A stretch of DNA of 64,000 bases from Planctomycetota bacterium. GTDB taxonomy: Bacteria > Planctomycetota > Brocadiia > CAIUPP01. Below are positions 354 through 20,117 of this stretch, piece by piece (the stretch's first letter is position 1; each line of letters begins with the position of its first letter). The stretch lies in the NCBI GenBank assembly GCA_022705425.1, contig JAKJEM010000014.1, positions 1 to 64,000 on the forward strand, in the 5' to 3' direction. The notes beneath the pieces are model-generated. The model did no database searches and was not told the DNA's origin. It saw nothing but the letters and a program-made list of their open reading frames with translations. The position numbers and the translations under genes are program-made.

Positions 354-394
354 GAGGGGCGCAAGCGCTCCCGGAGAGGGGCGCACTCGCTCCC
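354..394. repeat. Two palindromic repeat units between prophage genes
   Basis: Two adjacent units of the family whose core is GAGGGGCGC-(n)-GCGCTCCC lie between the tail tube gene and the GT9-like gene. The first has AA in the loop. The second reads GCGCACTCGCTCCC. They can form GC-rich hairpins but lack a T-tract, so they are not ordinary terminators. Confidence 0.7.
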
Positions 395-402
395 ATCGTG
401 AC

Positions 403-1323
403 TCAGGCGCTGAACACCTGGATTTCGTCGCGCGCCTCCGGCAGGCTTGCAAAGGCTTCAAACTTGACGGGCATCTCCAGCGCCGCGTCCTTCGCCAGTT
501 TGGCGTGTCCGGCCGCCAGGCGGCAGTAGGGCAGCGAAATCACGACGGTCGAAAGGCCGTTCGTGAAGGTTGCCTGGAAGAGCGCGTAGGCGTCGTCGCG
601 CCAGACGGCCAGCACGGACGCGCGCGTCGCCGCGTTCCAGTCCAGCGTCAGTTCGCCGGAAACCTCGCGCTTGCCCACCACCGGCAGCGCCAGCCGCGTC
701 CGCGAGCAGCGGAAAACGCTTTCATCGAGCTTGTTCGCGATCGAAAGCTTGAACGCCTTGACCTGCACGGACGCGCCGCCGATCTGAAAATCGCTGCCGG
801 CGTGCACCAGCGGGATCTCGACGTCATAGACGGGCGTGCCGAAGTCCTCCTCGGCGCCGGCGGCAAATCCTGCGGCCACGCACTCGAAACCGCCGGCGAG
901 CGCCTGGGCGCTGTCGCTGCTTTCCAGGTCCAGCCGCGTCAGCTTACAGCCGGAGAAGACGCCCGCCTCGCCGCCGGCCTTCTTGACGGCGGTAAAGCTC
1001 GGCAGGTCGTCGGAAGGATAGCCCGATCCGCCGCCGTAGCCGCCGAGCGCCAGCGGCAGCAGAAAGGAGAGCTCCGCCCGGCGCAGGGCGGACATCCGCG
1101 TCCCGCCGCGCGGATCGAGCGTCGTCGGGGCGGACCCGGTCTTCGCGCGCGACCGGCTGCCGGTGATGCCGTCCGAGTTGAACCAGTTGCGCGTTTCGTC
1201 GAAGCTGTCGCTCTCGATTTCGAGGTACTTCGTCGGCGGCGTGACGGCGTCGTTGAAGGACGACTCGACGGCCAGTCCCAGCCCGCCGTCATACCCGGAC
1301 TCCACGGTGTGCGTTTCACCCAT
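403..1323 (-). CDS. Phage tail tube protein (probable)
   Basis: 306 residues. The start is the ATG at 1323, preceded by AAGGAG six nt upstream. The protein opens with a GETHTVESGYDGGLG segment and is rich in beta-prone stretches with alternating polar residues, as in siphophage tail tube proteins. Its place directly after the two connector proteins is where the tail tube gene sits in non-contractile Mu-like phages. No sheath gene precedes it, which argues for a siphovirus. No catalytic motif is present. The family call rests mainly on gene order and size, so a minor tail protein remains possible. Confidence 0.6.
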   Translation of the reverse strand: MGETHTVESGYDGGLGLAVESSFNDAVTPPTKYLEIESDSFDETRNWFNSDGITGSRSRAKTGSAPTTLDPRGGTRMSALRRAELSFLLPLALGGYGGGSGYPSDDLPSFTAVKKAGGEAGVFSGCKLTRLDLESSDSAQALAGGFECVAAGFAAGAEEDFGTPVYDVEIPLVHAGSDFQIGGASVQVKAFKLSIANKLDESVFRCSRTRLALPVVGKREVSGELTLDWNAATRASVLAVWRDDAYALFQATFTNGLSTVVISLPYCRLAAGHAKLAKDAALEMPVKFEAFASLPEARDEIQVFSA

Positions 1324-1340
1324 GACCGTCTCCTTAAACC

Positions 1341-1841
1341 CTAGGCCGCCAGGTTGCGCCGAAACACCAGGGCGACCGTAAACTCCATCTTCCAGGCGAC
1401 GCGCACCAGGCGCTCCTCGCCGTCGGCGGCCACACTTTTCCCGTAGGTGTCGCTGACCGGCCCGGCGCCGGGACGGCACAGGTACAGTCCCGTGGCGGCG
1501 GCGCCGAAACGGTCCGACTTGAAGCGCGTCATCAGCGCCTTCACCACCAGCGCCCACAGGTCCACCACCGCGTCCGAGTTCTCGTCCTGGACGCGGACAT
1601 CGAACAGGAGGTTCAGCGTCACGTCGTGCGACACGTTCGTGGCGGCCGGCAGCGCGCCGTCGCCGAATCCGGGGATGCAGGCGATCATCGGACAGTCGCT
1701 GCCGGTGATCTCCACGGGATGCTTGGCCCCCAGGTCGTAGAGGTACCAGTGCCCGCCGTTCGCGGCCATATACGCGGCGACGGCGGTGTCCGCCTTGAGC
1801 GCGGACAGCGCGGCCCGATAGCCTGTGGTGGCAAAGCTCAT
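1341..1841 (-). CDS. Head-tail connector / tail completion protein (Mu gp37-like position)
   Basis: 166 residues. The ATG at 1841 overlaps the stop of the upstream gp36-like gene (ATGA), with GGAG upstream. The N-terminus SFATTGYRAALSALKADTAVAAYM and the later FDVRVQDENSDAVVDL stretch resemble the small minor tail/completion proteins that join neck to tail. It lies between a gp36-like adaptor and the tail tube, exactly where such a protein is expected. The C-terminus ends FRRNLAA without repeat-derived sequence. Function is inferred from size and order, as I see no diagnostic motif. Confidence 0.5.
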   Translation of the reverse strand: MSFATTGYRAALSALKADTAVAAYMAANGGHWYLYDLGAKHPVEITGSDCPMIACIPGFGDGALPAATNVSHDVTLNLLFDVRVQDENSDAVVDLWALVVKALMTRFKSDRFGAAATGLYLCRPGAGPVSDTYGKSVAADGEERLVRVAWKMEFTVALVFRRNLAA

Positions 1842-2290
1842 GACGGTTCGCTCCACGGCGCGCGCCCCGGAGAGGCGCGGCGTTCCGCCGCTGCCGGATT
1901 TCCGACGCGCGGCGCATTGCCGTGACGCCGGGCGAGGATCGCGCCGGTCGCGGAGACCAGCCCGTCGGCGATCACGCGGTCCTTCATCTCGCGCGCCTCC
2001 AACTTCAGCGCCCCGATCAGGTTGACGTTACCCGTCCCGTCGCGGCTGAACTTGTACGCCAGCAGCAGGGCGGATCCGAGGCGCTCGGCGATCTGCGCGA
2101 CCATCGGCGCCGTCGCAAAGGACGGCGACGCAACGTCGTAGTGCCGCGCAAACCAGGCGTTGACCTGGGCGTCCGCCGCCGCCTCCGCCTTCGCCACGTC
2201 GGCGGCGGTCAGGCCGTGCTGCGCGTTCGTCACCAGCGGGTCCAGATTCTTCAGGAATCCCTGTCCGACCGTCAGCGTCGCGTAACTCAT
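1838..2290 (-). CDS. Mu gp36-like (DUF1320) head-tail adaptor
   Basis: 150 residues with an all-helical N-terminal half. The AAADAQVNAWFARHYDV segment and the following QIAERLGSALLLAYKF helix match the pattern of DUF1320/gp36 proteins, in which a helix-rich adaptor sits between capsid and tail. The start is ATG at 2290 with AAGGG upstream. The last roughly 25 residues (from about GNAPRVGNPAAAERRASPG) are encoded by a palindromic repeat unit at 1872-1895, so the natural C-terminus has apparently been replaced or extended. It precedes the tail completion gene with a 4-nt overlap. Confidence 0.55.
   Translation of the reverse strand: MSYATLTVGQGFLKNLDPLVTNAQHGLTAADVAKAEAAADAQVNAWFARHYDVASPSFATAPMVAQIAERLGSALLLAYKFSRDGTGNVNLIGALKLEAREMKDRVIADGLVSATGAILARRHGNAPRVGNPAAAERRASPGRAPWSEPS
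1872..1895. repeat. Palindromic repeat unit within gp36-like gene
   Basis: The unit GAGGCGCGGCGTTCCGCC continues to CGCTGCC. On the minus strand the stem is GCGGCG-GAA-CGCCGC (6-bp stem, 3-nt loop). It encodes part of the C-terminus of the gp36-like protein. Confidence 0.7.
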
Positions 2291-2304
2291 GTCCGTTTCC
2301 CTTG

Positions 2305-2375
2305 GCGCCGTAGCGCGCCTCTTCGGCAGCGCCGTAGCGCGCCTCTTCGGCAGCGCCGTAGCGCGCCTCTTTCGG
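2305..2375. repeat. Tandem array of three 24-bp palindromic units
   Basis: Three consecutive units start at 2305, 2329 and 2353, each GCGCCGTAGCGCGCCTC followed by a TTCGGCA-type linker. The period is exactly 24 bp. Each unit contains a GCGC-CGTA-GCGC stem-loop. The array fills most of the gap between the capsid gene and the gp36-like gene. Confidence 0.9.
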
Positions 2376-2447
2376 CCTCCGCCGCCGGCTTTGAGGGGGA
2401 GAGCGGCCCTCGCCGCCGGCGACGGAGCGCCGGAACACTGAAGCCCT

Positions 2448-3452
2448 CTACGGCGTCACATCGGCGTATATGATCGCGTCGGGCACCTTCAGCCGCGGGA
2501 TGAAGACGTCCCCGTCGGTGATCTGGTAGCCCGCCGGATCGGCCTTCAGGACGGTGTAGGCGTGCATCCCGAAGACCTCCTGAAGCTGCGTCTCGCCCAA
2601 GGGCAGGATCATCGTGCTGCCTTCGAGCAGGTCCACCCAGTCCGTCGTCGGGTCCGGCGCCAGGATGACCTTGTCGTCGAGGATGTAGCGCGTGGCGCTG
2701 CCGCCCTTCGGCGTGTAGGTCGCGCCGTAGATGTGCCAGGTCAGCCCGTGGAAGCTGGTGATGTACCCGTCGCGTCCGATCTGCGCCTTGTAGTCGGCCG
2801 TGCCCAGGAAGTCCTTCACCTTGGTGTTGTTCATCAGGTACTTCATCACCGACCGGTTGCACCAGGCGTGCGTCGGGGTGAAGCCGCTGTCCTTTTCGAC
2901 CAGGTCTATCCAGGCGTCGAGGTCCGCCGGAATGTCCGTCTCCGCCGTCGCCCAGCTCGCCTGCGCCGTCGGTTTGTGCGTCCCGGCGACCTTGTAGTCC
3001 ACGGCGGCCTTGACGTCGTCCTCGGCGATCGTCAGCGTGCCGGTCAGCATCTGCGCCACGGCCAGGTTGCGGAAGCGCGCGCGGCGCCGGTCGAGGTCCC
3101 GCAGCTCGCGGGCGATCTGAGCCTGGGCGTTCGTCCGCCGCGTGCCGGGTTCGCGCAGCCCGGCCAGCAGCGCGCCGGGCAGCATCTTGTGCTCCGCCAC
3201 CACGATGCAGCGCCCGGCCACCTGGCCCATCGGGGCCAGCGCCACGCGCTTGGACGGGGCGTCGCTCGCCTTCGGCGTCGCCACGTTTGCGCTCGCCTTC
3301 TCGATGTCGTACGCGAATGCCTCCCCGTTGATCCGCTGCGCCGGACCGGGGCAGAAGAAGTCCACCAGCCGCGTCTCGTTGCCGTACTTGAACTGCTCCA
3401 CGGCGGCCGTCATGGCGATGTAGTCCAGAACGTCCAGTTCTCCGAGTCCCAT
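2448..3452 (-). CDS. Major capsid protein, lambda gpE-like
   Basis: 334 residues, near the 341 of lambda gpE. The pattern fits that fold: an N-terminal arm ending QFKYGNETRLVDFF, a polar middle containing RELRDLDRRRARFRNLAVAQM, and a C-terminal GETQLQEVFGMHAYTVLKADP stretch. It sits directly downstream of a decoration protein gene, the usual D-E order, and downstream of protease/scaffold. GGGAGA precedes the ATG at 3452. It forms the capsid shell after prohead proteolysis. Pairing a lambda-type capsid with Mu-type terminase and portal indicates a mosaic head module. Confidence 0.8.
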   Translation of the reverse strand: MGLGELDVLDYIAMTAAVEQFKYGNETRLVDFFCPGPAQRINGEAFAYDIEKASANVATPKASDAPSKRVALAPMGQVAGRCIVVAEHKMLPGALLAGLREPGTRRTNAQAQIARELRDLDRRRARFRNLAVAQMLTGTLTIAEDDVKAAVDYKVAGTHKPTAQASWATAETDIPADLDAWIDLVEKDSGFTPTHAWCNRSVMKYLMNNTKVKDFLGTADYKAQIGRDGYITSFHGLTWHIYGATYTPKGGSATRYILDDKVILAPDPTTDWVDLLEGSTMILPLGETQLQEVFGMHAYTVLKADPAGYQITDGDVFIPRLKVPDAIIYADVTP

Positions 3453-3464
3453 CGTTCATCTCCC

Positions 3465-3484
3465 GAGTGCGGTACCCCGCACTC
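3465..3484. repeat. Hairpin GAGTGCGG-TACC-CCGCACTC upstream of capsid gene
   Basis: A perfect 8-bp stem with a TACC tetraloop lies just upstream of the capsid start. It is a close variant of the prophage hairpin family GTGCGCGG-N4-CCGCGCAC. Confidence 0.7.
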
Positions 3485-3585
3485 TCTTCTCCGGGAGGGA
3501 CGGCGCTTGAATGTCCGTCCATCCGTCGGAAACCGTCACCTTGCCAGTTTGTTGTTCGTCGTCCGCCGTCCGTCGTCTTACGTCG

Positions 3586-3981
3586 TCAGTCGAACAGGAT
3601 CGCCACGAGATCCGCCTTGGCCGCCGCGTCGCAGCCGATCAGCGCGCTTTCGTCCACGCGCCCGTGCACGACGCCGATCGCGCTCGCGTCCACGGCGTTT
3701 CCGTCCTCGTCCACCACGCGCACCTGATCCTTCAGGATGCACGCGGCAACTTCCGTCCCGTCCACGGCGCTGGGGTCGTACTGCGCGTACTTGCCCGAGT
3801 CCGTGATCTTGCCGAGCACCAGGCCCGGGCGCAGCGTCGTCGTCCGGTGGGTATTCCCGGAATCGCGCGCGGCGGCGGCGATGGTGATGCCCTTCTCGAT
3901 CACGTGCGGATCGAGCAGGAACTCGGTGGGCGTGCGCGAACGCTCCGCGCCGAAACCCACGTTCGGGTGCTTTCGTTCCAC
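3586..3981 (-). CDS. Head decoration protein, lambda gpD-like
   Basis: 131 residues, the size of the HDPD/gpD family. These small beta-rich trimeric proteins cap the expanded capsid lattice. The central stretch TTTLRPGLVLGKITDSGKYAQYDPSA is the family hallmark (a LRPGxVLGKxT-type turn followed by GxYxxYdP). The start is GTG at 3981 with AAAGGAG seven nt upstream. The ATG-less start and the position between protease/scaffold and capsid match the lambda-like order. Later residues DESALIGCDAAAKADLVAILF are typical of the end of the domain. Confidence is high because motif, length and context agree. Confidence 0.85.
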   Translation of the reverse strand: MERKHPNVGFGAERSRTPTEFLLDPHVIEKGITIAAAARDSGNTHRTTTLRPGLVLGKITDSGKYAQYDPSAVDGTEVAACILKDQVRVVDEDGNAVDASAIGVVHGRVDESALIGCDAAAKADLVAILFD

Positions 3982-4077
3982 GTCTCACTCCTTTGCGTTT
4001 GTTCGGTGTGGCGCAACCGAGGGTGCGCGCGCGCGCACCAGCATCGCTTGCGTTCATCTCACAGCCGAGGGCGCAGC

Positions 4078-4123
4078 GTGCGCGGTACGCCGCGCACTCC
4101 GCTGATGCGCCGTAGCGCGCCCC
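4078..4123. repeat. Palindromic repeats between scaffold and decoration genes
   Basis: A perfect GTGCGCGG-TACG-CCGCGCAC hairpin at 4078-4097 is followed by a GCGCCGTAGCGCGCCCC unit at 4107-4123. The second unit reaches the stop of the protease/scaffold gene. Two different repeat families are juxtaposed here. Confidence 0.8.
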
Positions 4124-5274
4124 TACGGCTGCACCATTCCCGCCAGCTTCTTGCCGCGGGCAACGCGGTCCTCGGGCTTCTCCTCGGCCTCGCCGCCCGG
4201 GTTCTCGATGGCGCGCAGCTTCGTCCGTTCGGTCAGATCGAGCGCCGCGCCGCGGGGCAGCGTCGCCATGATCCGCTCAAACGCGCCGGCGGCGTTGACC
4301 GGCTTATCGCCGGAGCGGAGCTGCACGCGCCGCCCGCTCGTCAGCAGCAGCCGGGCGTCCTCCTCCATCGCCGGCAGCAGCTTGCCCTCGGCCTTGAGCT
4401 GCGCGACCTTCGACTCCGCGCCTTCGCCGATCATCCGGTCCAGGTCGGCGCGCAGTTGGAGGACTTCGGGGTCCTTCGGTTCCTTGTCCTGGCCGGGCTT
4501 GCCGGCACGCAACGTTTCGACCTCGGAGCGAAGCTGCGTCACCTCGCCGTCGAGTTTCGTGCAGCGCGCAATCGCCTGGTCCCGCTCGCTCTTCGCCTGG
4601 CGCAAAGCCGTCTTCTCCTGGCCGCCCAGCTTCTCCTTCAACGCCGCCAACAGCGCCTCGTCGGTGCACGACGGATCGCACCCCGCGAGCGCGCACACGT
4701 CCTCCCTGAATCCCATGTCCGTTCCGCCTTTCCGTAGAAACACAATTCCGTCCGGCACAGCGCCGGACCTTGCCGCAAGTCGCTCGAAGTTGCTCTGGCC
4801 GCTGACTCTGGCGCGAGTACAGGGCGCCACGTGCTCGATACACTCCCCATAGTTCTTGCCGTCGCCGGCGACAAAAGCGGGGTTGACGGACAAACTCACC
4901 TCGGTGACGGTCGAGCCGATGCGGTTCTGATCCTCAGCGCGCGGAACCTCCAACTCGACGTACAGCGTGTCGCCGATGCGCTCCATCGCGCGGACGAAGC
5001 CCGCGTTGTCCCGGCTGTCGTCGCTATGGTCGTAAGGTGCGTCCACTTTGATTCCGGCGGCCTTCATCACGCGGAACCGTTCGCACCATCGGTCCATCCG
5101 CTCCGGCGTAACCTCGATCGCCTTCCCGCCCGACGTCCACCAGGTGCCGGTCCGAATCACGTCCTTGCGGAAGACGCCCGGAGTGACGGTCTTGAAGTTG
5201 TCCTGCCGGTCTTCCTGGATGCCGTAACGCAGCATCGTCGGGAGCGCAACGGACGCGCCCATCTCCGCGCTCAT
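4123..5274 (-). CDS. Phage protease/scaffold protein (Mu gpI/gp32-like)
   Basis: 383 residues. The N-terminal domain (about 1-170) contains DAPYDHSDDSRDNAGFV and EVSLSVNPAFV, the pattern of Mu I-type head maturation proteases, where a His and a Ser serve catalysis. The C-terminal half, from about residue 190, is a charged coiled coil (EKTALRQAKSERDQAIARC onward) typical of the fused scaffold. The start is ATG at 5274, overlapping the upstream stop by 4 nt, with AAGGAG upstream. It cleaves scaffold and capsid during prohead maturation. The position just before decoration and capsid genes supports this. Confidence 0.8.
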   Translation of the reverse strand: MSAEMGASVALPTMLRYGIQEDRQDNFKTVTPGVFRKDVIRTGTWWTSGGKAIEVTPERMDRWCERFRVMKAAGIKVDAPYDHSDDSRDNAGFVRAMERIGDTLYVELEVPRAEDQNRIGSTVTEVSLSVNPAFVAGDGKNYGECIEHVAPCTRARVSGQSNFERLAARSGAVPDGIVFLRKGGTDMGFREDVCALAGCDPSCTDEALLAALKEKLGGQEKTALRQAKSERDQAIARCTKLDGEVTQLRSEVETLRAGKPGQDKEPKDPEVLQLRADLDRMIGEGAESKVAQLKAEGKLLPAMEEDARLLLTSGRRVQLRSGDKPVNAAGAFERIMATLPRGAALDLTERTKLRAIENPGGEAEEKPEDRVARGKKLAGMVQP

Positions 5275-6146
5275 CTCGTCGTCTCCTTGAATCCGAGTTG
5301 TTCGAGGTGTCCGTTCGTGATATCGGACGTCCCAGCGCGATGCTGTTCCGCTGCCAGGCAAGGCTTGAGCAGGTCCCACTTATCGAAGGGAACCTCAGGG
5401 GCCGACGGGCCGAGGAGCGGCTTGGCGCTTTCGATGCCGCGCAGATTCGCCAGGAACGCCGCGCGGTAGACCATCACGAGATATCCCATCACGCCCAGCA
5501 GCACCGCGCAGATCGCCCCCAGGCCGATCCAGCCGATCAACACGTCGTGCTGCGCGAACGCGACGGCGACCACGGCGCCGGAGATGCCGGCGCCGGCCAT
5601 ATACAACCCGACGTTCCCCGGCACGAGCCACTTGACGATCCCGCCGATGACGAACAGCAGCAGCGACAGGCCGAGGAAGCCGGCGAAGATGTACTGCTGC
5701 GCCCGGAGGCCATGGTCGCGGTACTCCGCGCCCCTCGCCGCGCGCGCCGGGGCTACCGCCCGATGGGCGGGCGTTGCGTGCGCGTCGCGCGCGTCGTGCG
5801 CGTCGCGCGCGGTACTCCGCGCACTCGGGATGTCGGCCTGAATGGGACGGGCCTGCGGGATCACGCGGCATCCGGCCAGGACACACAGAACAACGACGGC
5901 GACGGCCGCGCAACAGGGCCAGGAACGCGCAGAAACGTCCCTTCCGGGCGCGCAAATCGTCTGGCGGCGGTGGCAGGTCACCCCCGCGCGCAAGCCCTCT
6001 ATCGGCAGCGCAACGGCTGCGCTGCACAGGCGCTGCGCTGCAGCGCAGCCGTTGCGCAGCACCGATGTAGCGCGCCTCTTCGGCAGCGCCGTAGCGCGCC
6101 TCTTCGGCAGCGCCGTAGCGCGCCTCTTTTCGCGCTCTGCGTTCAT
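5271..6146 (-). CDS. Prophage membrane protein with lipobox-like segment and repeat-derived N-terminus
   Basis: 291 residues if translated from ATG 6146, which overlaps the stop of the G-like gene (ATGA). The first roughly 45 residues (ERRATALPKRRATALPKRRAT and on) come entirely from palindromic repeat DNA. Downstream, AVVVLCVLAGC resembles a lipoprotein signal with a lipobox Cys. After a low-complexity AHDARDAHA stretch there are about three membrane segments (QQYIFAGFLGLSLLLFVIGGIV; VGLYMAGAGISGAVVAVAF; IGLGAICAVLLGVMGYLVMV). It could be a holin-like or superinfection protein; neither is shown. I see no alternative start close to the lipobox, so the real N-terminus is uncertain. Confidence 0.5.
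   Translation of the reverse strand: MNAEREKRRATALPKRRATALPKRRATSVLRNGCAAAQRLCSAAVALPIEGLRAGVTCHRRQTICAPGRDVSARSWPCCAAVAVVVLCVLAGCRVIPQARPIQADIPSARSTARDAHDARDAHATPAHRAVAPARAARGAEYRDHGLRAQQYIFAGFLGLSLLLFVIGGIVKWLVPGNVGLYMAGAGISGAVVAVAFAQHDVLIGWIGLGAICAVLLGVMGYLVMVYRAAFLANLRGIESAKPLLGPSAPEVPFDKWDLLKPCLAAEQHRAGTSDITNGHLEQLGFKETTR
5778..5824. repeat. Palindromic repeat cluster inside membrane protein gene
   Basis: GTGCGCGTCGCGCGC occurs twice in a row, leading into GCGCGCGG-TACT-CCGCGCAC at 5805-5824, a member of the 8-bp-stem hairpin family. The segment is translated as the RDAHDARDAHA-type low-complexity part of the membrane protein. Confidence 0.75.
6008..6128. repeat. Composite palindromic element: 18-bp perfect stem plus three tandem units
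   Basis: GCGCAACGGCTGCGCTGC at 6008-6025 pairs perfectly with its reverse complement at 6040-6057, leaving a 14-nt loop that itself contains GCGCTGCGC. Three consecutive units of the GCGCCGTAGCGCGCCTC family follow (the first is a variant), again spaced 24 bp. The whole element lies at the 5' end of the membrane protein reading frame. Confidence 0.9.
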
Positions 6147-6862
6147 CCGATGGCCTTTCCAATCGCCTGGCTGAGAATGCGCGCGTACTTCGCCTGCTGC
6201 TCCGCCGTCGGCGGGACCAGAAACGGACGCGCCGGCACGCGGTAGCTCTTGCCGCGCATCTTGCGCAAGACCGCCAGCGTGCGGAAGTAGAAGGGGTTCC
6301 ACGGCGATTCCAGCCCCAGCGCCTTCCAGTTTCGGCGAGCCGTGGGCGCGCGCAGCGCGCGATACGGACCCTTCGCAAAGCCCATCCCGCGCTTGAACGG
6401 CGAAACGTTCCGCCGGAAGGTCTTGTATTCCTCCGGGCCGAACTTGAACGTCGTCGTCCCGCCGCGCTGCTGAAGCTCCGCGTAGGCCACGTCCGTGCCG
6501 ATCCGCACCGCCGCCGGGCTGAGATCGAAGACGTTCCCCGGCGCGCCGGGCGTCAGGCTCGCAAACAGCCGGTTCGTCGCGCGCAGCAGCATGATCCGGC
6601 TGCGCTTGGCCGCTACGTCCCCCTCGTCGTACAGCTTCGGCCCGCCGGGCCGCAGCACCACCGTGGTGAAGCCCAGCGCAGGCCACGGCGAGGCGCCAGG
6701 ACGGGATTTCGCGACAAAGCCCAGCCGCTGGTCCTGCAAGGCGGCGATCCCGATCGCCCGTTTCGCCTGGACAAGGGCCGGATGCCGGTCCAGCCGGCGC
6801 AGATTCACCAGCGTGTTCAGCAGCCCGGCGCTCGGCATGACTGTGACCTCGACGTCAGCCAC
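6143..6862 (-). CDS. Mu G-like virion morphogenesis protein
   Basis: 239 residues. The start is GTG at 6862, with AAGGAG eight nt upstream, rather than an earlier in-frame codon. The protein has the arrangement of phage virion morphogenesis (Mu gpG) proteins: an N-terminal LLNTLVNLRRL helix, a VRIGTDVAYAELQQRGGTT stretch matching the family YAxxQxxGG pattern, and a C-terminal VPARPFLVPP matching PARPFL. It is co-directional with the MuF gene upstream and followed with a 4-nt overlap. In Mu this protein acts in head-tail joining. Motifs and order agree well. Confidence 0.8.
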   Translation of the reverse strand: MADVEVTVMPSAGLLNTLVNLRRLDRHPALVQAKRAIGIAALQDQRLGFVAKSRPGASPWPALGFTTVVLRPGGPKLYDEGDVAAKRSRIMLLRATNRLFASLTPGAPGNVFDLSPAAVRIGTDVAYAELQQRGGTTTFKFGPEEYKTFRRNVSPFKRGMGFAKGPYRALRAPTARRNWKALGLESPWNPFYFRTLAVLRKMRGKSYRVPARPFLVPPTAEQQAKYARILSQAIGKAIG

Positions 6863-6873
6863 GCGATATCTCC

Positions 6874-6902
6874 TTGACAACGGGCCTTTGATGGGCCATA
6901 CT
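6874..6902 (+). promoter_or_regulatory. Sigma70-like promoter for the small plus-strand gene
   Basis: TTGACA at 6874-6879 is a perfect -35 box. A 17-nt spacer leads to CATACT at 6897-6902, four of six matches to TATAAT. It points against the late operon and lies just upstream of GGAGGAG and an ATG at 6921. Confidence 0.6.
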
Positions 6903-6920
6903 GCTCACGGAGGAGTTGAG

Positions 6921-11929: not shown

Positions 11930-11961
11930 TGCAAAATCTCCGTCATCTGCGGATCACCTGA

Positions 11962-12662: not shown

Positions 12663-12689
12663 GCCGTCCACCGCTGCCGATGTGGCACA

Positions 12690-12770: not shown

Positions 12771-12801
12771 CCACGCGAGACGTTGTGTTCGGCGTGCGTT
12801 T

Positions 12802-13320: not shown

Positions 13321-13342
13321 CGCTCAGGTCTCCTCGCCTTCC

Positions 13343-13460: not shown

Positions 13461-13469
13461 GTGCCGATA

Positions 13470-13817: not shown

Positions 13818-14515
13818 CGGGCGGCGCCCCTCTCCGGGAGCGCTTGCGCGCCCCTCTCCGGGAGCGCTTGCGCGCCCCTCTCTCCGTCCACCGCCGCCAT
13901 GCGGCGGAAGACGCGGATGACGTTGCCGGCCTCCTGGCGCGTGAGGGAGGTGTACTGGCCGTCCCAGGCGGCGCGGCGGAATGGGTGGAGCAGGCGCGCG
14001 CGGATGAGTTCGGCGGGGCCGACGCGCCAGGGGATCGTCTCGGCCAGCGATTCCAGGTACTCCAACTGCGCGGGGGTGATCGGCAGCGCCGTAGCGCGCC
14101 TCTCCGGGAGCGCGTGCGCGCGCCTCTCCGGGAGCGCGTGCGCGCCCCTCTCCGGGAGCGCGTGCGCGCCCCGCTGACCCTCCTGCCCACAGCCGAGGGC
14201 GGCTGTGCCACACCGCGGCGCCGGTGCTGTGCCACACCGCGGCGCCGGTGCTGTGCCACACCGCGGCGCCGGTGCTGTGCCACACCGGCCACGTCCACGT
14301 CCACGGACGCGGGGCCGACCAGGCGCGACGGACTGGCCGGCGCGGCGCTGGAGTTCGGCGACGACGTTGCGCCACTCCTGGACGGTGAAGTCCGTGGTCG
14401 AGGGCTTGCCGGTCATCGTGCGGTTGAAGTCGTGGCGGGTGTCGGCGTCGAGGCCGAGGGACTTGCAGAGCGCAAAATAGGCCGAGCGATAGGGGGCGCA
14501 ATCCATGTCCGGCAT
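13814..14515 (-). CDS. GemA/gp16-like protein (DUF1018) interrupted by in-frame repeats
   Basis: 233 residues. The N-terminal part (YRSAYFALCKSLGLDADTRHDFNRTMTGKPSTTDFTVQEWRNVV) and the C-terminal part (ITPAQLEYLESLAETI onward to RQEAGNVIRVFRRMA) together make a normal GemA/gp16 protein. Between them about 75 residues are pure repeat translation: CGTAPAPR four times, then RGAHALPE-type octamers. The DNA below is two arrays of 24-bp palindromic units (14089-14173 and 14188-14288). The C-terminus also ends in octamers from a third array. GemA-like proteins in Mu affect DNA gyrase or gene expression. The start is ATG 14515 with GGAGAG upstream. Confidence 0.7.
   Translation of the reverse strand: MPDMDCAPYRSAYFALCKSLGLDADTRHDFNRTMTGKPSTTDFTVQEWRNVVAELQRRAGQSVAPGRPRVRGRGRGRCGTAPAPRCGTAPAPRCGTAPAPRCGTAALGCGQEGQRGAHALPERGAHALPERRAHALPERRATALPITPAQLEYLESLAETIPWRVGPAELIRARLLHPFRRAAWDGQYTSLTRQEAGNVIRVFRRMAAVDGERGAQALPERGAQALPERGAAR
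13824..13885. repeat. 24-bp palindromic units at the 3' end of the GemA-like gene
   Basis: Two full units, 13824-13847 and 13848-13871, read GCGCCCCTCTCCGGGAGC plus GCTTGC, with a partial third to 13885. The core stem is GGGAGCGC-TT-GCGCGCCC. They are translated in frame as ERGAQALP octamers. Confidence 0.85.
14089..14173. repeat. 24-bp palindromic array within the GemA-like gene
   Basis: One GCGCCGTAGCGCGCCTC unit is followed by three units of the GGGAGCGCGTGCGCGCC family, spaced exactly 24 bp. Translation on the minus strand gives the repeated RGAHALPE-type octamer in the middle of the protein. Confidence 0.9.
14188..14288. repeat. Hairpin plus three 24-bp units within the GemA-like gene
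   Basis: CACAGCCG-AGGG-CGGCTGTG at 14188-14207 is followed by three identical 24-bp units starting 14208, 14232 and 14256 (CCACACCGCGGCGCCGGT plus GCTGTG), then a partial copy. On the minus strand they encode CGTAPAPR repeated. The identity of the three copies suggests recent amplification. Confidence 0.9.
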
Positions 14516-14607
14516 GGCTTAGCTCTCCATCCCGTCCGCGCGCCGGAGGCCGCGCGCCAAGGCGCGCAGGCCACGCGACGCGCGACGGCAACTAATAGCA
14601 TGGACCA

Positions 14608-14757
14608 TCACAGCGCACCGGTGGCGGCGAGGACGAAGAGCAGCGCGGCGGCGGCGATCGCCAGCGCGCCCAGACAGCCCATCGCGGCGCGTTCGTCGGG
14701 GGTGTGGTTGTAGGACGGGGCGACCAGGGGCAGATCTCCGGCAGCTTCGGGCTTCAT
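14608..14757 (-). CDS. Small single-pass membrane protein
   Basis: 49 residues, MKPEAAGDLPLVAPSYNHTP followed by a charged turn and then one hydrophobic helix (MGCLGALAIAAAALLFVLAATGAL) at the very C-terminus. ATG 14757 overlaps the stop of the preceding small membrane gene (ATGA), so it is translationally coupled. A tail-anchored topology is likely. No named family is recognised. The pair of tiny membrane genes after Gam may act in membrane or lysis functions, which is inference. Confidence 0.6.
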   Translation of the reverse strand: MKPEAAGDLPLVAPSYNHTPDERAAMGCLGALAIAAAALLFVLAATGAL

Positions 14758-14915
14758 GGCTGCGGCCTCCAGAGAAAGAGGAGGACCGTCGTCGCCGCGA
14801 AGAGGGCGGCGAGGGCGGCGGTCCGGGGTTCGTGTCGTGCGGCGCTGACGACGGCCTGGCCCAGGTAGAGGACGGTCAGGGCCAGGCCGAAGGCGTTTTC
14901 AAGGAGCCAGGTCAT
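14754..14915 (-). CDS. Small two-pass membrane protein
   Basis: 53 residues from the ATG at 14915, which overlaps the Gam stop (ATGA). Two hydrophobic helices are visible, WLLENAFGLALTVLYLGQAVV and TAALAALFAATTVLLFLW, separated by a short basic loop ARHEPR, so both ends should lie on the same side. It is coupled at both ends to neighbours by 4-nt overlaps, which supports that it is translated. The size and topology resemble small phage holins, but nothing else confirms lysis. Confidence 0.6.
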   Translation of the reverse strand: MTWLLENAFGLALTVLYLGQAVVSAARHEPRTAALAALFAATTVLLFLWRPQP

Positions 14916-15550
14916 GGATGCACTTCCGTGGGCCGCGGGCCGTTCCACGCCTCACCTTCCGGTCCATAGCGCGTGGCGTCCTTGCTCGCGCCACGCGCCG
15001 CGCACTCCTCGGAGGCTGTCGGCGGGATCACGCGCGCTTCGCCCTTGAGTTCGAGCTTGAAGATATCCCCCTGGCTGATCCGCATTCCGGCCTGGGCGAG
15101 CTGCTCGTCGGTAACCTGGCGGTCCTTCCACGAGGTCAGGATCATCATCTTGTCCAGCTCGGGGGGGCGGCGGATGAAGTGCGGCAGGAGGCGTTCGGCG
15201 GCTTCGAGAATCTTCTTCCACGTCCACTTGCGCGAGAGGGGCGCGACGGCGGGGGGCGTGCGCTGGAAGCTGAGGGTGCCGTGGGCGCGCTCGACGGTGC
15301 GCGGCTCGGTGAACTCGGCCTTGTGCGCCTCGGCGAACTCGGCGACGCCGGCCTTCAGCGCCTCGAAGCGCTCGGCCCAGGCGGTGAGGTCCGGCTCGTG
15401 CCGGGCGCGGACGGCGGCGAGTTCGGAGTTCATCTGCGCCAGGCGCGCGTCAATCCGGCTTTCCAGGATGCACATCGCGCCGAGCGCGGTGTCCACCTCC
15501 TGCCAGGACGATGGGGTGGCGGGCGGCGCGGGCACTTTCGATTTGCTCAT
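14912..15550 (-). CDS. gam: Host-nuclease inhibitor Gam-like protein
   Basis: 212 residues. The start is ATG 15550 with AAGGAG seven nt upstream. The body shows the Mu Gam/Ku-like pattern: an N-terminal ALGAMCILESRIDARLAQMNSEL helix, EPDLTAWAERFEALKAGVAEFAEAHK, then ERAHGTLSFQRTPPAV leading into the beta core, and KDRQVTDEQLAQAGMRI near the end. Gam binds double-strand ends and shields phage DNA from exonucleases. The C-terminal tail (EECAARGASKDATRYGPEG) looks partly repeat-derived (14989-15013). Position between MuB and GemA matches the Mu early region. Confidence 0.85.
   Translation of the reverse strand: MSKSKVPAPPATPSSWQEVDTALGAMCILESRIDARLAQMNSELAAVRARHEPDLTAWAERFEALKAGVAEFAEAHKAEFTEPRTVERAHGTLSFQRTPPAVAPLSRKWTWKKILEAAERLLPHFIRRPPELDKMMILTSWKDRQVTDEQLAQAGMRISQGDIFKLELKGEARVIPPTASEECAARGASKDATRYGPEGEAWNGPRPTEVHP
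14989..15013. repeat. Degenerate palindromic repeat in the Gam 3' end
   Basis: GCGCCACGCGCCGCGCACTC then CTCGG, a diverged member of the GTGCGCGG-N4-CCGCGCAC family, encodes the EECAARGAS part of the Gam C-terminus. Confidence 0.5.
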
Positions 15551-15572
15551 GCGGTTCTCCTTCGGCTCTGTG

Positions 15573-15680
15573 GCCGGTGTGGCACAGGCGCCCTCGCCTG
15601 TGGCCTCTGTGAACGCATCACACCGCCGAGGGCGGCGGCGCCACATCGCGCTACGGAGAGCGGGGCGCGCAAGCGCTCCC
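15573..15680. repeat. Palindromic repeat cluster upstream of gam
   Basis: An imperfect GCCACAGGCGAGGGCGCC-type palindrome (15573-15604), a CCGCC-GAG-GGCGG hairpin (15623-15637) and a GGGGCGCGCAAGCGCTCCC unit (15662-15680) follow one another. The last encodes the C-terminus of the HTH gene at 15651-15995. Confidence 0.75.
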
Positions 15681-15995
15681 GAACAACGACGGCTGGACGG
15701 GGCGCGGCTGGAATCCTTCGGCGGAGCGGAAGCGCCAGAGGTGCTCGGCGCGCGGGCGCGACTCCGGCGGGACGGAATAGACGGTGTGCAGGCGTCCGGT
15801 TTCGGGGTCGGTGTGCGACTCGGCGACGATCTGGACGAGGTGTTTGAGGCGGAGGTCGCTGATCCGCCCGCGGTAGGAGAGCATTCCCAGGGCGTTGAGG
15901 CGCGGCGCGGGGGCGCGCCACGCGGACCACCGGAGGCAGTCGAGTATCTTCCAGCAGTCCTCGGAAAGCGCGTGGGGGCGCGCGGTCGTGGTCAT
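15651..15995 (-). CDS. Helix-turn-helix protein (HTH_39-like)
   Basis: 114 residues from ATG 15995. The core CWKILDCLRWSAWRAPAPRLNALGMLSYRGRISDLRLK has the spacing of the winged-helix phage family in which a LSYRxRISDLR recognition helix ends the motif. The following VAESHTDPETGRLHTVYSVP forms the wing. It probably regulates prophage genes or acts in replication control. The last roughly ten residues (FGSACAPRSP) come from a palindromic repeat. It lies between a short charged protein and Gam in the early operon. Function beyond DNA binding is not inferable. Confidence 0.6.
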   Translation of the reverse strand: MTTTARPHALSEDCWKILDCLRWSAWRAPAPRLNALGMLSYRGRISDLRLKHLVQIVAESHTDPETGRLHTVYSVPPESRPRAEHLWRFRSAEGFQPRPVQPSLFGSACAPRSP

Positions 15996-16009
15996 GGGGC
16001 GATGCTCCC

Positions 16010-16342
16010 TCAATCCCTGCGTGCGCGGCACGCCGCGCACTCCTCGGGGTCTTCGAGGCGGTCCACGGCAGCGGCGGGACGCCGCGCCTCTCCGGCAGCG
16101 GCGGGACGCCGCGCCTCTCCGGCAGCGGCGGGACGCCGCGCCTCTCCGGCAGCGGCGGGCGCCGTCTGGCGCTCCGCCAGGGCGTCGAGATTGGCGCGGC
16201 CTTCGCGCAGGACGTCGGCGGCGCGGTCGAGCAGGTCGGCGCAGCGGCGCAGATCGTTTAGGGCGACATCCAGTCGGTCGCCGAGCAGGCCCTCGAAACG
16301 CTCCGAAAAGCCCACGACAATGGGGTCGGGGTACTGGATCAT
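16010..16342 (-). CDS. Small early protein with a repeat-derived C-terminal half
   Basis: 110 residues. ATG 16342 follows the MuB-like stop with GGAGGG upstream. Residues 1-60 look genuine, a helical stretch DVALNDLRRCADLLDRAADVLREGRANLDALAER with coiled-coil character. From about residue 61 the protein is AAAGEARRP repeated three times, the translation of a 27-bp palindromic array at 16071-16151, and it ends in another hairpin unit. The original C-terminus has apparently been replaced by repeats. No family recognised. Confidence 0.55.
   Translation of the reverse strand: MIQYPDPIVVGFSERFEGLLGDRLDVALNDLRRCADLLDRAADVLREGRANLDALAERQTAPAAAGEARRPAAAGEARRPAAAGEARRPAAAVDRLEDPEECAACRARRD
16021..16166. 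repeat. Hairpin plus three tandem 27-bp palindromic units
   Basis: GTGCGCGG-CACG-CCGCGCAC lies at 16021-16040. Units starting 16071, 16098 and 16125 are identical: GCGGCGGGACGCCGCGCC then TCTCCGGCA, period 27 bp. A variant fourth copy begins at 16152. Each contains GCGGCG-GGA-CGCCGC. Confidence 0.9.
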
Positions 16343-16343
16343 G

Positions 16344-17381
16344 TTAGCCCTCCATCAGCGTGGCGTAGGCGCGGGCAATGCACTTGGCGTCCATCTTTCC
16401 GCCGTCGGCGGCGGCGATGCGCTGCGCGCCGACGAGGGCGTTGGCGAGGCGTCGGGCGGAGCCGTGGGCGCCGTCGCGCAGGGTGGCCAGGGCGGCGCGA
16501 TCCATGGGAAAGGGGGCGGCGATGCGCTCGGCGTCCTCGTCGGTGATGCCGTTGACGACGCAGCAGTAGGTGATGCGGCTGAGGAACTGCTCCAGGGTGG
16601 AGGATTTCCGCGCGCGCAGGCGCACCAGGAAGGCGGGGGTGGCGACGAAGACCATGCCGCAGCGGGCGATGTCGTGGATCATGCGGAGGACCTGCAGGAG
16701 GTCCTCGGCGGCGTAGTCAATCTCGTCAATGATGACGAGGCGTCCGGTGTCGCGCAAGGCGGCGCCGACGGCCTCGATGGCCTCATGCTGTGAGACGCAG
16801 GGGCCGAGTTCGACGTTGAGGGCGTCGGCCAAGGCGCGCAGGATGGGGCGGCCCGCGCCGTGGAGGCCCTTGCGCCCGGCGGGGCGCATGGTGATGAGGA
16901 CCGTCTCCGGCTCGGCGAGGCAATAGCAGCCGACGGCCATCGTCTTGCCCGCGCCGGGGCGGCCCATGATGACGGCCATGACCCCCTCGTCGTGGGCGTT
17001 TCGGAGCGTTTCGAGGGCCTGCTCGGCGACGGAGGTGAGGGCGAAGGGGGGGCGCTGGGGGACGCGCTTGCGGCGCTCCTCCTGATCCAGGGCGCGCTGC
17101 ATCCGCTCGGCGATGCGGGCGACGTCGCCGGCGTACTTGCCGGAGGCGACCTGGCTGAGGGTGCTGGCGCTGACGCCGAGCTTGCGGGCGGCGGCGGCCT
17201 GCGTCCAGCCGCGCACGCGGGCGACGGCCAGGTATTGCTCGACGACGCGTGCGCGTCGTGCGCGGTCCTCCGCGCACTCTCCGGCAGCGGCGGGACGCCG
17301 CGCCTCTCGGTCCTCCGCGCACTCCTCGGTCGGCGGCGATTTCACGGGGGAGTTCGCCGCGCGGGCGTCTGGATGTTCCAT
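16344..17381 (-). CDS. MuB-like AAA+ ATPase, transposition target-capture protein
   Basis: 345 residues from ATG 17381, with AAGGAG seven nt upstream. An N-terminal HTH (about 57-80, GWTQAAAARKLGVSASTLSQVASGKY) precedes a P-loop GRPGAGKT at 140-147 and a Walker B LVIIDE at 215-220, then FVATPAFLVRL. This is the layout of MuB (312 aa in Mu), which binds target DNA, stimulates the transposase and confers target immunity. Residues about 18-43 (EECAEDREARRPAAAGECAED) are repeat-derived, upstream of the HTH. It is immediately downstream of the transposase and a small gene, as in Mu. Confidence 0.85.
   Translation of the reverse strand: MEHPDARAANSPVKSPPTEECAEDREARRPAAAGECAEDRARRARVVEQYLAVARVRGWTQAAAARKLGVSASTLSQVASGKYAGDVARIAERMQRALDQEERRKRVPQRPPFALTSVAEQALETLRNAHDEGVMAVIMGRPGAGKTMAVGCYCLAEPETVLITMRPAGRKGLHGAGRPILRALADALNVELGPCVSQHEAIEAVGAALRDTGRLVIIDEIDYAAEDLLQVLRMIHDIARCGMVFVATPAFLVRLRARKSSTLEQFLSRITYCCVVNGITDEDAERIAAPFPMDRAALATLRDGAHGSARRLANALVGAQRIAAADGGKMDAKCIARAYATLMEG
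17258..17329. repeat. Palindromic repeats in the 5' part of the MuB-like gene
   Basis: GTGCGCGG-TCCT-CCGCGCAC at 17258-17277 is followed by a GCGGCG-GGA-CGCCGC unit and a half hairpin CCTCCGCGCACTCCTC. They encode a repeat-like segment between the start codon and the HTH domain, without breaking the frame. Confidence 0.85.
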
Positions 17382-17382
17382 C

Positions 17383-17748
17383 TCACTCTCCTTGGCGGGG
17401 CGGAATGATGGCGTTCTCGGAGCGTGCGCGGGACCCCGCGCACTCCTCCGTCTCCGGGCAATGACGGAGAATGGAGTCAATCTCCTGGCGGTTGGTGGAG
17501 ATCGCGATGAGCATGAAGGGGCTGCCGCCGTTGCGCAGGGCGATCACCGTCATCGGCCGCGCCGTTGCGCGCCTCTCCGGCGGCGTTCCACCGAGGTCCT
17601 GGCTGAAGACCTTTCCCGCCCCGGCAAAGACCCGCTGCACGAGCTGCTCGCGCGTCAGATGCGTCGCCGTGGCGTTGATGACGCGAACCGGCGGGCGCCC
17701 GGACTCCCAAAGCTCCCCGTTGTCCGTCCTGAGTTTCGGCGCGTCCAT
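17383..17748 (-). CDS. Small prophage protein between transposase and MuB genes
   Basis: 121 residues. ATG 17748 has GGAAAGGATAG upstream, and the stop lies one nt before the MuB-like start. The genuine-looking part is ELWESGRPPVRVINATATHLTREQLVQRVFAGAG and MTVIALRNGGSPFMLIAI. Two stretches, PPERRATAR and EECAGSRARSE, come from repeat units at 17559-17580 and 17424-17443. No domain is recognised. Its location implies an accessory role in transposition or early regulation, but this is only positional. Confidence 0.55.
   Translation of the reverse strand: MDAPKLRTDNGELWESGRPPVRVINATATHLTREQLVQRVFAGAGKVFSQDLGGTPPERRATARPMTVIALRNGGSPFMLIAISTNRQEIDSILRHCPETEECAGSRARSENAIIPPRQGE
17424..17443. repeat. 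Hairpin GTGCGCGG-GACC-CCGCGCAC
   Basis: A perfect 8-bp stem with a GACC tetraloop, inside the small gene between transposase and MuB. A second unit of another family (GCGCCGTTGCGCGCCTC) lies at 17559-17575 in the same gene. Confidence 0.85.
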
Positions 17749-17763
17749 TGTTCTATCCTTTCC

Positions 17764-17810
17764 GGCAGCGGCGGCACGCCGCGCCTCTTCGGTAGCGGCC
17801 TTCCGCCGCT
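17764..17810. repeat. Palindromic repeats just downstream of the transposase gene
   Basis: A GCGGCG-GCA-CGCCGC unit with the usual GCCTCTTC tail is followed by GTAGCGGCCTTCCGCCGCT. They separate the transposase stop from the ribosome site of the next small gene. Confidence 0.8.
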
Positions 17811-17813
17811 GTG

Positions 17814-20117
17814 CTATGCGCCCTGCCGTTCCGCCTGCACGGCGGCGGCCTGGGCGAGGATGTCCTGCGCGGCGGCGGCGGCGTTGCGGCGCCGGGCCTC
17901 GTCGCGCGCGGCGGTATCGTCGGCATCGGCCTTCTCGACGGCGCGGATCGCGGCGGCGGCGGAGTCGTCCGAGCGCGGCGTCTGGGTTTCGATGCCCGCC
18001 TGGAGAGGAGTGCGCGGAGTACCGCGCACGCACAGCGCGGCGTTGGCGGCAGCCAGGGCGTTCGCCCCGGTGGGGTCGTGGTGCTCCGGCGACAGAGCGG
18101 CGCGCAGCTCGCGCGCGGTGGTCATGAGGTGGGCGCGCTGGGCCTTGCGGGCGGACCAGACGGCCTCGTTCGAAGCGGTCATCTCGCGCCAGTGCGCCGG
18201 CGGCAGGGCCGGGACGACGAGGCGGCGGTTCGGGTCCATGGCGGGCCGGACGCAGATGGCGGCAAGGTTGTCGGGGTCGTAGAGAACATCCACCCACTGC
18301 CCGACGTAGAGCATCAGTTCGTCATTCATGAAGCGGGCCGGGCCGATTTCGATCCCCTGGGTGGCGACCTTGCGGCGGCGGGGCTGGAGGAGGAGCAGAT
18401 CGAGGGCGGCTTCGTGGGCGGTTACCGCGCGTCCGAAGGCGTTATAGGCGGCGTCGGGGGGCAGGGCGCGATCGCCGCAGCGGTGCTCGGATTCCCACTT
18501 CCGGACCTGTTCGGTGAAGGCCTCGGCGTACTGCTCCCAGGTCAGGAGCCGGCGCTCGCGGAGCTCGCGGGCTAGCTTTTCGGGCTTGTCCTCGACGCTG
18601 TGGCCGCACCAGCCGGGGAGCAGGTTCTCGAAGGGGCGGGCGAAGGCGCCGAAGATCGGCTCGATGGGCTTGGACCAGGAGGAGTAGGGCAGGGCGTTGA
18701 CGATGTCCTCGATGCCCAGGGCGCGCAGGGTGGACCAGCCGCCGGCGCTGTCCACCGAGGGCGGGAAGGCGGCGGGCCAGCGCGCGCAGCCCTCGTAGTC
18801 GGCCTGAGTGGGTTCCTGGAGTTGCAGGCGCGTGCGGGCCTTGCCGCCGAAGCGCTCGGCGGTGAACTCCTTGCCGTTGTCGAAATAGAGCGCCGTGGGC
18901 ACGCCGCGGCGGAGGATGCCCATGCGCAGGGCGAGGGCCACGGATTGCGCGCTGGGGCGGTCGGCCAGCCGCCAGCCGGCGAAGGAGGCCGTGGCCAGGT
19001 CAATGAAGAGCGTGAGCCAGGGGCGCACGATGCGCCCGTCGGGCGCGATGACGAAGGTGTCCATGCGGCGATGGTCGGCGCACCACAACTCGTTGGGGGC
19101 CAACGCCTTCGGATCGCGGTGGACCTTGGCCATGCCGTGCTCCTCCCAGGCGCGCTGGCCGTGGCGGAAGGCGGCGCGTTGCAGGGGGGTGACGTGGCGC
19201 TCGATCCAGCGGGCCACGCTGGAGCGGCTGGGGAGGGGACAGCGATGGAGACGGCAGAGGTCGCGCAGGGTGGCCATGACCTGGCTGAGGCGCGGGCGCT
19301 GCTGGTTGAGCCAGCGCGCGCGGATGGCGCGCTGCATCCATTCCGGCATGGCCGTTTCGCCGCGGTTGTGGCCCCAGCCGGGGAAGAGGCCGATGTGGCC
19401 GTGCTTTTCTGCGCGGCTCATCCAGGCGCGGAGGGTCTGCTGCGATTGTCCGAGCTCGATTTCCAGCCGCGCCCAGACCTTCATGCGGTCGCCGTAGCCG
19501 GCGGCCTCGAGGGCCGCGCGGCAGGCGCCCACGCACCGCAGGCGGTGGTCATAGACCTCGATTTCGCTGTGGCGACCCGCCAGGCGCAGGGCGACGATGT
19601 CCGGCCGGCCCTCCGGGGTGAGGGGGATGGCCGCGCCGCGCAGGGGTTCCGGACGGGCCGGCAGCGCCGGTTCGGCGGCGCGCAGGGGGCGCCCGCCGGC
19701 CTCCGCGCTCTCCGCGGCAGCGATTCCGGCCACAGGCGAGGGCGCCACAGGCGCTGCGCAACGGCTGCGCTGCGGCGCAGCGCCTGTGCAGCGCAGCCGG
19801 TGTGCCACACCGGCAGCGCCGTAGCGCGCCTCTCCGACAGCGCGCGCCTCGTCCGTCATCTGCCGGAAGGCGGCCTGCGCGCCGGGGGAGAGGCAGGAGA
19901 GGGGAATCCGGTTGACCGGGCGACCGTTGCCGGCGAGGCGCGGCGTGCCGCCGCTGCCGGAGAGGCTGAGGCCAGGCACGATGCGGTAGCGGCCCTCGCG
20001 GACGCGGTTGAAGACCTCGCGGCGGGAGATGCTCTCGTAAAGGGCGACCTCGTCGTAGGTCAGCAGGATGCCCTGTTCGGGGGCGGCGGCAATCGGGGCA
20101 ATGGCGGTTTCCATCAT
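17814..20117 (-). CDS. DDE transposase, MuA-like
   Basis: 767 residues. The start is ATG 20117, with AGGAGG five nt upstream and a 4-nt overlap with the HTH gene stop; open frame further upstream is an artefact. Residues 1-45 form an end-binding HTH region. The catalytic core runs about 335-500 with D347 (NELWCAD), D412 (YFDNGKEF) and E485 (KPIEPIFG). A beta-barrel DNA-binding part and a basic C-terminus follow, as in MuA (663 aa). It cuts and joins the prophage ends. Two repeat insertions, residues about 50-62 and 94-130, lie in the linker between the end-binding region and the core, which may explain why they are tolerated. Confidence 0.9.
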   Translation of the reverse strand: MMETAIAPIAAAPEQGILLTYDEVALYESISRREVFNRVREGRYRIVPGLSLSGSGGTPRLAGNGRPVNRIPLSCLSPGAQAAFRQMTDEARAVGEARYGAAGVAHRLRCTGAAPQRSRCAAPVAPSPVAGIAAAESAEAGGRPLRAAEPALPARPEPLRGAAIPLTPEGRPDIVALRLAGRHSEIEVYDHRLRCVGACRAALEAAGYGDRMKVWARLEIELGQSQQTLRAWMSRAEKHGHIGLFPGWGHNRGETAMPEWMQRAIRARWLNQQRPRLSQVMATLRDLCRLHRCPLPSRSSVARWIERHVTPLQRAAFRHGQRAWEEHGMAKVHRDPKALAPNELWCADHRRMDTFVIAPDGRIVRPWLTLFIDLATASFAGWRLADRPSAQSVALALRMGILRRGVPTALYFDNGKEFTAERFGGKARTRLQLQEPTQADYEGCARWPAAFPPSVDSAGGWSTLRALGIEDIVNALPYSSWSKPIEPIFGAFARPFENLLPGWCGHSVEDKPEKLARELRERRLLTWEQYAEAFTEQVRKWESEHRCGDRALPPDAAYNAFGRAVTAHEAALDLLLLQPRRRKVATQGIEIGPARFMNDELMLYVGQWVDVLYDPDNLAAICVRPAMDPNRRLVVPALPPAHWREMTASNEAVWSARKAQRAHLMTTARELRAALSPEHHDPTGANALAAANAALCVRGTPRTPLQAGIETQTPRSDDSAAAAIRAVEKADADDTAARDEARRRNAAAAAQDILAQAAAVQAERQGA
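18010..18029. repeat. Hairpin GTGCGCGG-AGTA-CCGCGCAC in transposase 3' region
   Basis: A perfect 8-bp stem with an AGTA tetraloop. The flanking GAGGAG on its left shows it is inserted in the opposite orientation to most other copies. It encodes the VRGTPRTP stretch of the transposase tail. Confidence 0.85.
19729..19840. repeat. Composite palindromic element within transposase gene
   Basis: The outer part begins GCCACAGGCGAGGGCGCC. Inside, CACAGGCGCTGCGC at 19746-19759 pairs perfectly with 19775-19788 (14-bp stem, 15-nt loop holding a GGCTGCGC copy). GGTGTGCCACACC and a GCGCCGTAGCGCGCCTC unit follow to 19840. At least four repeat families are nested in 112 bp, still in frame. Confidence 0.9.
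19931..19965. repeat. Palindromic repeat in transposase N-terminal linker
   Basis: GAGGCGCGGCGTGCCGCC continuing to GCTGCC is the reverse complement of the GCGGCG-GCA-CGCCGC family. It encodes SGSGGTPRLAG, the same peptide type seen in the MuF linker. Confidence 0.8.

Follow-up and report, generated by a model that had tools for sequence, protein, structure and literature searches.

REP-like hairpin families, shared with the host or confined to the phage, on a Mu-like prophage of a Planctomycetota bacterium

Why should a prophage be crowded with short palindromic repeats that the adjacent chromosome lacks? The question is raised by positions 1 to 64,000 of contig JAKJEM010000014.1 (C55, 72,954 bp; assembly GCA_022705425.1), a stretch of DNA from a metagenome-assembled genome (MAG) of a Planctomycetota bacterium that is called the window below. 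A Mu-like prophage occupies it from base 1, where the contig begins inside the phage, to about 22.9 kb, and contains six families of hairpins, F1 to F6. We found that F1, F2, F3 and F5 are confined to the phage within this genome, whereas F4 and F6 are found across the host genome as well. The combination of families shared with the host and families private to the phage is a general pattern, which recurs in independent Mu-like phages.

The repeats clearly set the prophage apart from its surroundings. Between positions 1 and 22,000, 158 14-mers occur in three or more copies, as against none in two 22-kb control stretches to the right. Hairpins with arms of at least 8 and loops of at most 8 reach 1.10 per kb in the phage, compared with 0.17 in the chromosome to the right and 0.34 in a further 322 kb taken from elsewhere in this MAG, an unselected set from which alone the general hairpin density was taken. 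The initial annotation had listed six palindromic cores, all of which were recovered where it had placed them, and had counted more than 20 places, which after merging amount to about 28 loci, split roughly evenly between gene junctions and the interior of open genes. Its view that the region is a phage is borne out by MuA, MuB, Gam, the Mu portal, MuF and other Mu-like genes, and the adjacent chromosome, where it had seen no repeats, indeed contains no family between 22.7 and 64 kb at the mismatch limits used. No known RNA family of Rfam matched in the window. Palindromic copies lie in frame in the unrelated proteins MuA, MuB, MuF, portal and GemA-like, and in the genes g4, g25 and g27. Their tandem units measure 24 or 27 bp, both divisible by three, and arrays can therefore lengthen within genes with the frame intact. 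Leaving the repeat array out of the GemA-like protein did not improve coverage of the GemA profile, which was thus unusable as proof of insertion.

Alignment of all copies of F1, F2 and F3 showed that the three are versions of one element, in which a hairpin with an unpaired A is bounded by shared ends, CGG[C/G]A at left and TCTYC at right. The lower stem is GGC/GCC in F1 and F2 and GGG/CCC in F3, while the upper stem and loop vary among them. The linker CTCTYCGG, already recognized in the initial annotation as common to the units, is shared because neighbouring copies meet there, end to end. A folding program returned the fold with the unpaired A for F1 and F3; the F2 example preferred pairing through the neighbouring linker, and for F2 this fold is presumed by analogy. 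F5 folds as a perfect 8-bp stem. All four are palindromes of 20-50 nt able to form a hairpin, as are the repetitive extragenic palindromes (REPs) whose features were taken for comparison from PMC8266576 and PMC3733652.

Their distribution was compared with stretches of the same genome, some of them chosen for holding F4, and with whole-genome pattern searches. Over the whole 4.35-Mb MAG, 7 of the 8 F1 matches, all 12 F2 matches and all 7 F5 sites fall on phage contigs. In 694 kb of other stretches, the density of F2, F3 and F5 is 0.14 per 100 kb versus 26-53 in the phage, that of F1 is 1.0 versus 40, and that of the joined linker form is 0 versus 66. These families are thus confined to the phage and few, about 40 units in all, and do not show the many copies dispersed over a host chromosome that are typical of REPs. 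When 392 genomes of the phylum were searched with a combined F1/F3 pattern, it was numerous only in the present one. The same set yielded no F1/F3-rich chromosome that could have been the donor: scattered single matches were comparable to a reversed-pattern control. Exact F1, F2 and F5 patterns were not found in IMG/VR, and exact F2 matched once among GTDB species genomes, in Roseicella aerolata. F5 is present at four loci of a genome of a sister genus (G001), in surrounding sequence that is host-like.

The phage contigs include C278 of the same MAG (L066, 9.4 kb), on which the same repeat families occur together with a glycosyltransferase-like gene and a weak tape-measure match; it is very probably a further part of the same phage. 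Glycosyltransferase-like genes lie at window positions 1-332 and at 30-1337 of L066, placed between the phage regions for the tail tube and the tape measure.

The other two families behave differently. F4 (CACAGCCG-AGGG-CGGCTGTG), a hairpin with an 8-bp stem, is host-wide, with 96 matches at no more than one mismatch in 4.35 Mb; only 2 of the 96 sites are in the phage, where it is at most slightly denser than elsewhere. The F6 type (GCCACACCGC / CAGGCGCTGCGC) is also dispersed in the host. The initial annotation had supposed that the repeats spare the chromosome and that all families belong to the phage alone: the former stands for F1, F2, F3 and F5 and fails for F4 and F6, and the latter had to be given up, F5 being found in the sister genus as well. 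Equal density across the host, which it had named as a refutation of its reading, is true of F4 and in part of F6 and is contradicted for F1, F2, F3 and F5. The heptamers CGTCGTCC of the phage recur in the host too; repeats of heptamer type CGTCGTCCGTCGTC are common to the host chromosome (L065, G000:C155, 6606-6752) and the phage (window 3548-3588 and 11780-11815).

On contig C209 of the same MAG, a REP-associated tyrosine transposase (RAYT) gene lies between F4 arrays (C209:12035-12430). It scores 80.9 bits with NF047646, just above the NCBIfam cut-off of 80, and 75.3 bits if the fused frame is scanned. Because a RAYT over the cut-off sits between its arrays, the dispersed F4 passes at the sequence level as a REP with its transposase. 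Its foot reads GTGG on one strand, as in RTGTGG-CACAGCCG, whereas that of REPs is most often GTAG. The RAYT and F4 cassette is wholly in frame within an open frame of 1,560 aa (L062 8603-13285). This frame also holds an NPPY motif (methylase-like) and three more in-frame F4 arrays, a REP cassette thus lying within a large coding sequence. Several other RAYTs of the class adjoin their own hairpins. The Y1-transposase genes at C233 and C11 were rejected as candidates, F-type hairpins not being beside them.

The initial annotation had suggested a search of related prophages, and the same pattern, formed by different hairpins, was indeed found in further Mu-like phages. Genome G017, from another genus, holds a related Mu-like prophage with homologues of the terminase, MuF, Gam and the repressor region; this prophage has a GC content of 48-49% in a host of about 40% and carries at least five hairpin families. 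One of them, GGGACACGG, is private to the prophage (5 of 5 sites). Another, CCCCCTTT, is host-wide; 17 of its 53 close matches on the contig lie inside the phage of about 36.5 kb, where by our own count it is about 24-fold denser than in the rest of the contig. A third, AGACGCAC, has 3 of its 4 sites in the G017 phage and 2 of 2 on a phage contig of G005, which belongs to another genus; the family is shared by the Mu-like prophages of both genera, and the two chromosomes are almost free of it. GTAG/CTAC feet are seen on the hairpins of the related phages (G017, L184). Among the IMG/VR contigs on which such hairpins occur, several have Mu-like genes (L184, L186, L199, L224, L226, L229/L236 and L237), one of them with five copies; they are listed without any claim of enrichment.

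Two further observations were made on contigs of this kind. Hairpins GTAGAGACGCAC, members of a family also present on the G017 phage, occur at 11635-12400 of L060 (G005:C48), a contig of another Mu-like prophage. At 14812-15613 of L055 (G018:C70), a RAYT gene adjoins its own hairpin array CTCAGGCG-GGGG-CGCCTGAG, and a Mu-like terminase gene is found about 26 kb away on the same contig.

On balance, we favour an explanation in which REP-like elements, moved by RAYTs of present and past hosts, accumulate in a transposable phage, expand by slippage and are tolerated at junctions or in frame. Replicative transposition would form many forks at which the phage DNA is single-stranded, and there RAYT-type (HUH) transposases of these hosts would insert the hairpins. 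Enzymes of this class prefer single-stranded DNA and the lagging-strand template (PMC6006769), a preference that may by analogy extend to this phage. Tandem units of 24 and 27 bp would then lengthen by slippage, and the copies that survive would be those of little consequence to the phage, at junctions between genes or in frame within linkers. As the phage passes from host to host and retains families gained earlier, its private set would record past hosts and may seed new ones. The trans-acting transposase proposed in the initial annotation thus stays the most likely spreader, with a RAYT in the genome for F4 and none found for F1-F3; for F1-F3 and F5 too, the mobiliser was presumably of RAYT type. 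Its stand-alone new phage system is better replaced by REP-like elements carried by a transposable phage, no F1-F3 transposase having been found on the phage parts seen.

Several points weigh against this explanation. F1-F3 and F5 lack the GTAG tag, their conserved foot on the other strand being GRAG or GGAG, and no RAYT cognate to them was found, none being adjacent to these families either in the MAG or in four relatives that were tested. Why transposable phages would be the preferred target is a matter of inference, other phage types not having been counted as a control. The contigs cover only part of the phage genome, and discrete insertion events are not shown, there being no repeat-free close relative for comparison.

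Alternatively, the phage itself could encode the system: a RAYT or other transposase in its unseen part, or the MuA machinery, would spread F1-F3 and F5 within the phage only. The confinement of F1, F2 and F5 to this phage in the MAG would be explained, as would the private family of the G017 phage, and the contig does miss part of the phage. However, no such gene was found among the phage proteins examined, neither C55 nor C278 has a RAYT match, and F5 is present in the genome of another genus. Moreover, MuA works at phage ends and not on such hairpins. We therefore consider this unlikely.

The hairpins could also be functional phage signals under selection, copied by recombination, such as intercistronic RNA hairpins tuning expression of the long minus-strand operon, or gyrase or packaging sites. 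REPs reportedly bind gyrase and influence transcripts (PMC3733652), the folds are stable, and the gene junctions, with about half of the loci, make up some 10% of the sequence and hold 413 of the 1,025 repeat bases. Yet the remaining bases lie inside genes that stay open, half of the loci being in frame, several unrelated stems behave alike, host-wide F4 and F6 copies are intermixed in the same arrays, and the hairpins of related phages are quite different, all of which makes this origin quite improbable. Replication slippage and template switching alone, without a transposase, would account for the clear tandem arrays of 24- and 27-bp units and for private families restricted to one replicon. 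They fail to explain near-identical units with defined ends at about 20 distant sites in both orientations, or the same F5 element in another genus, and we give them very little credence as the sole cause. Finally, that all are ordinary host REPs, equally dense everywhere, which holds for F4 and partly for F6, or an assembly artefact is barely conceivable given the whole-MAG counts of F1, F2 and F5, the reading frames that stay open through the repeats, the same families on the separate contig C278 and the same pattern in a second, more contiguous genome.

More tentatively, transposable phages might be reservoirs and vehicles of REP-like elements, with F1-F3, GGGACACGG and AGACGCAC living mainly on phages and circulating between hosts with them. 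If so, phages would give REPs a horizontal route. REPs are usually regarded as chromosomal; for their horizontal spread between lineages, Mu-like phages with hairpins of the current host and private ones offer a concrete, testable route. Their hairpin sets are a possible record of past hosts, and they provide a natural test of RAYT-type transposases acting on replicating single-stranded DNA. As a caution, phage proteins can contain translated repeats, even MuA and MuB.

The repeat loci and phage genes are collected in Table 1. A MuA-like transposase stands together with MuB and Mu-type head genes, as in Mu-like phages, with profile matches to phrog_310 (8.8e-85), phrog_296 (9.4e-58), Portal_Mu (1.3e-23), Phage_Mu_F (1.8e-16) and Mu Gam (2.1e-22). 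A terminase search of IMG/VR returned no close relatives of the phage, and the best identity of MuA to phage records was only about 26%. Near the presumed phage end, at 22855-22943, CGTTCACTCGGATCCGG is present in two exact copies, with further partial and inverted copies. The exact 17-mer pair (22855 and 22927) could be candidate transposase-binding sites; two matches were reached by 4 of 100 shuffles. At 21609-21645, within gene g29, lies TTTTGGGTGGACGTTACGTCCACCCAAAA, an almost perfect palindrome whose arms are 14 long; a related stretch, GTCAACCCAAAAC, directly precedes it.

Table 1. Repeat loci and phage features, in window positions; gene limits are our own calls, made partly by hand.
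Feature	Position	Strand	Basis or content
Two F3-like units, gene junction	354..395	-	sequence
F2, in frame near 3' end of gene g4 (1838-2290)	1871..1896	-	
F1 tandem array, 3 units of 24 bp, gene junction	2301..2370	+	
F5-like hairpin GAGTGCGGTACCCCGCACTC, gene junction	3465..3486	.	
F5 then F1 variant, gene junction	4078..4126	+	
F5, in frame, lipoprotein-like gene	5805..5826	+	
F6-type (CAGGCGCTGCGC...) and F1 tandem array, gene junction	6003..6128	+	
F2, in frame in MuF	7725..7750	-	
F2 (+) and F3 (-), in frame near C-terminal end of portal gene	8860..8916	+	
Host-type heptamers (GACGACGG...) and two F2 units, gene junction upstream of terminase	11780..11926	+	
F6-type and F4, gene junction	12679..12770	.	
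F3 (-), F5-like half site, F2 (+), gene junction	13345..13458	.	
F3 x2, in frame, 3' end of GemA-like gene	13830..13884	+	
Mixed array F1-F3-F3-F3-F4-F6 (4 units of 24 bp), in frame in GemA-like gene	14081..14287	+	
F6, two F4-like hairpins, F3 (-), at and past 3' end of g24	15574..15681	.	
F5 and F2 x3 (units of 27 bp) and degenerate fourth unit, in frame in g25	16015..16160	+	
F5-F2-F5-like run, in frame, N-terminal linker of MuB (EECAEDREARRPAAAGECAEDRA)	17252..17330	+	
F5, in frame in g27	17418..17446	+	
F1 variant, in frame in g27	17554..17578	+	
F2, gene junction between MuA and g27	17763..17788	+	
F5, in frame in MuA	18008..18031	-	
F6-type hairpins and F1, in frame in MuA	19735..19833	+	
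F2, in frame, N-terminal part of MuA (GLSLSGSGGTPRLAGNG)	19934..19959	-	
Mu-like prophage	1..22980, right limit approximate	- (genes, except repressor)	MuA, MuB, Gam, GemA-like, terminase, Mu portal, MuF, capsid E, tail tube; cut at contig left end
MuA-like transposase gene	17814..20114	-	PF09299, phrog_310
MuB-like gene	16344..17381	-	phrog_296, AAA domain
GemA-like gene, two repeat arrays	13814..14515	-	PF06252 just under cut-off (26.7 vs 27 bits), phrog_286
S24-type repressor	22021-22668	+	beyond minus-strand phage genes

As in known Mu-like transposable phages, MuA, MuB, Gam, the GemA-like protein, the Mu portal, MuF, the terminase and the repressor follow a Mu-like order; what sets the prophage of the window apart is its saturation by hairpins of several families, with in-frame copies even in the genes for MuA, MuB and the GemA-like protein. 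Rickettsia palindromic elements (RPEs) likewise lie in frame in unrelated proteins, a likeness of placement. RPEs are longer than the 24-27 bp units of the window, which are moreover on a phage.

GTAG- and CGTC-tagged palindromic repeats have been reported from Planctomycetes and relatives, without mention of phages (PMC3733652). They agree in size and shape with the hairpins described here and share the GTAG/CTAC feet of those on the G017 and L184 phages, whereas F1-F5 of the window lack the GTAG tag. In the open-access literature, neither REP papers nor wider searches yielded a report of REPs on phages. The closest likeness is to REPs with TnpAREP/RAYT, organized in REPtrons and bacterial interspersed mosaic elements. 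Common to both are hairpins of 20-40 nt, some with an unpaired stem base, an unpaired foot that is conserved, occurrence in clusters and tandem units, copies both between genes and in frame and, for F4, a RAYT gene flanked by repeats. F1-F3 and F5 differ by their confinement to the phage in this genome, their number of about 40 units, a foot of GRAG/GGAG rather than GTAG and the lack of a known RAYT. REPs, RAYTs and in-frame palindromic elements are thus already known; the new point is the phage, on which private and host-shared hairpin families occur together and recur in independent Mu-like phages.

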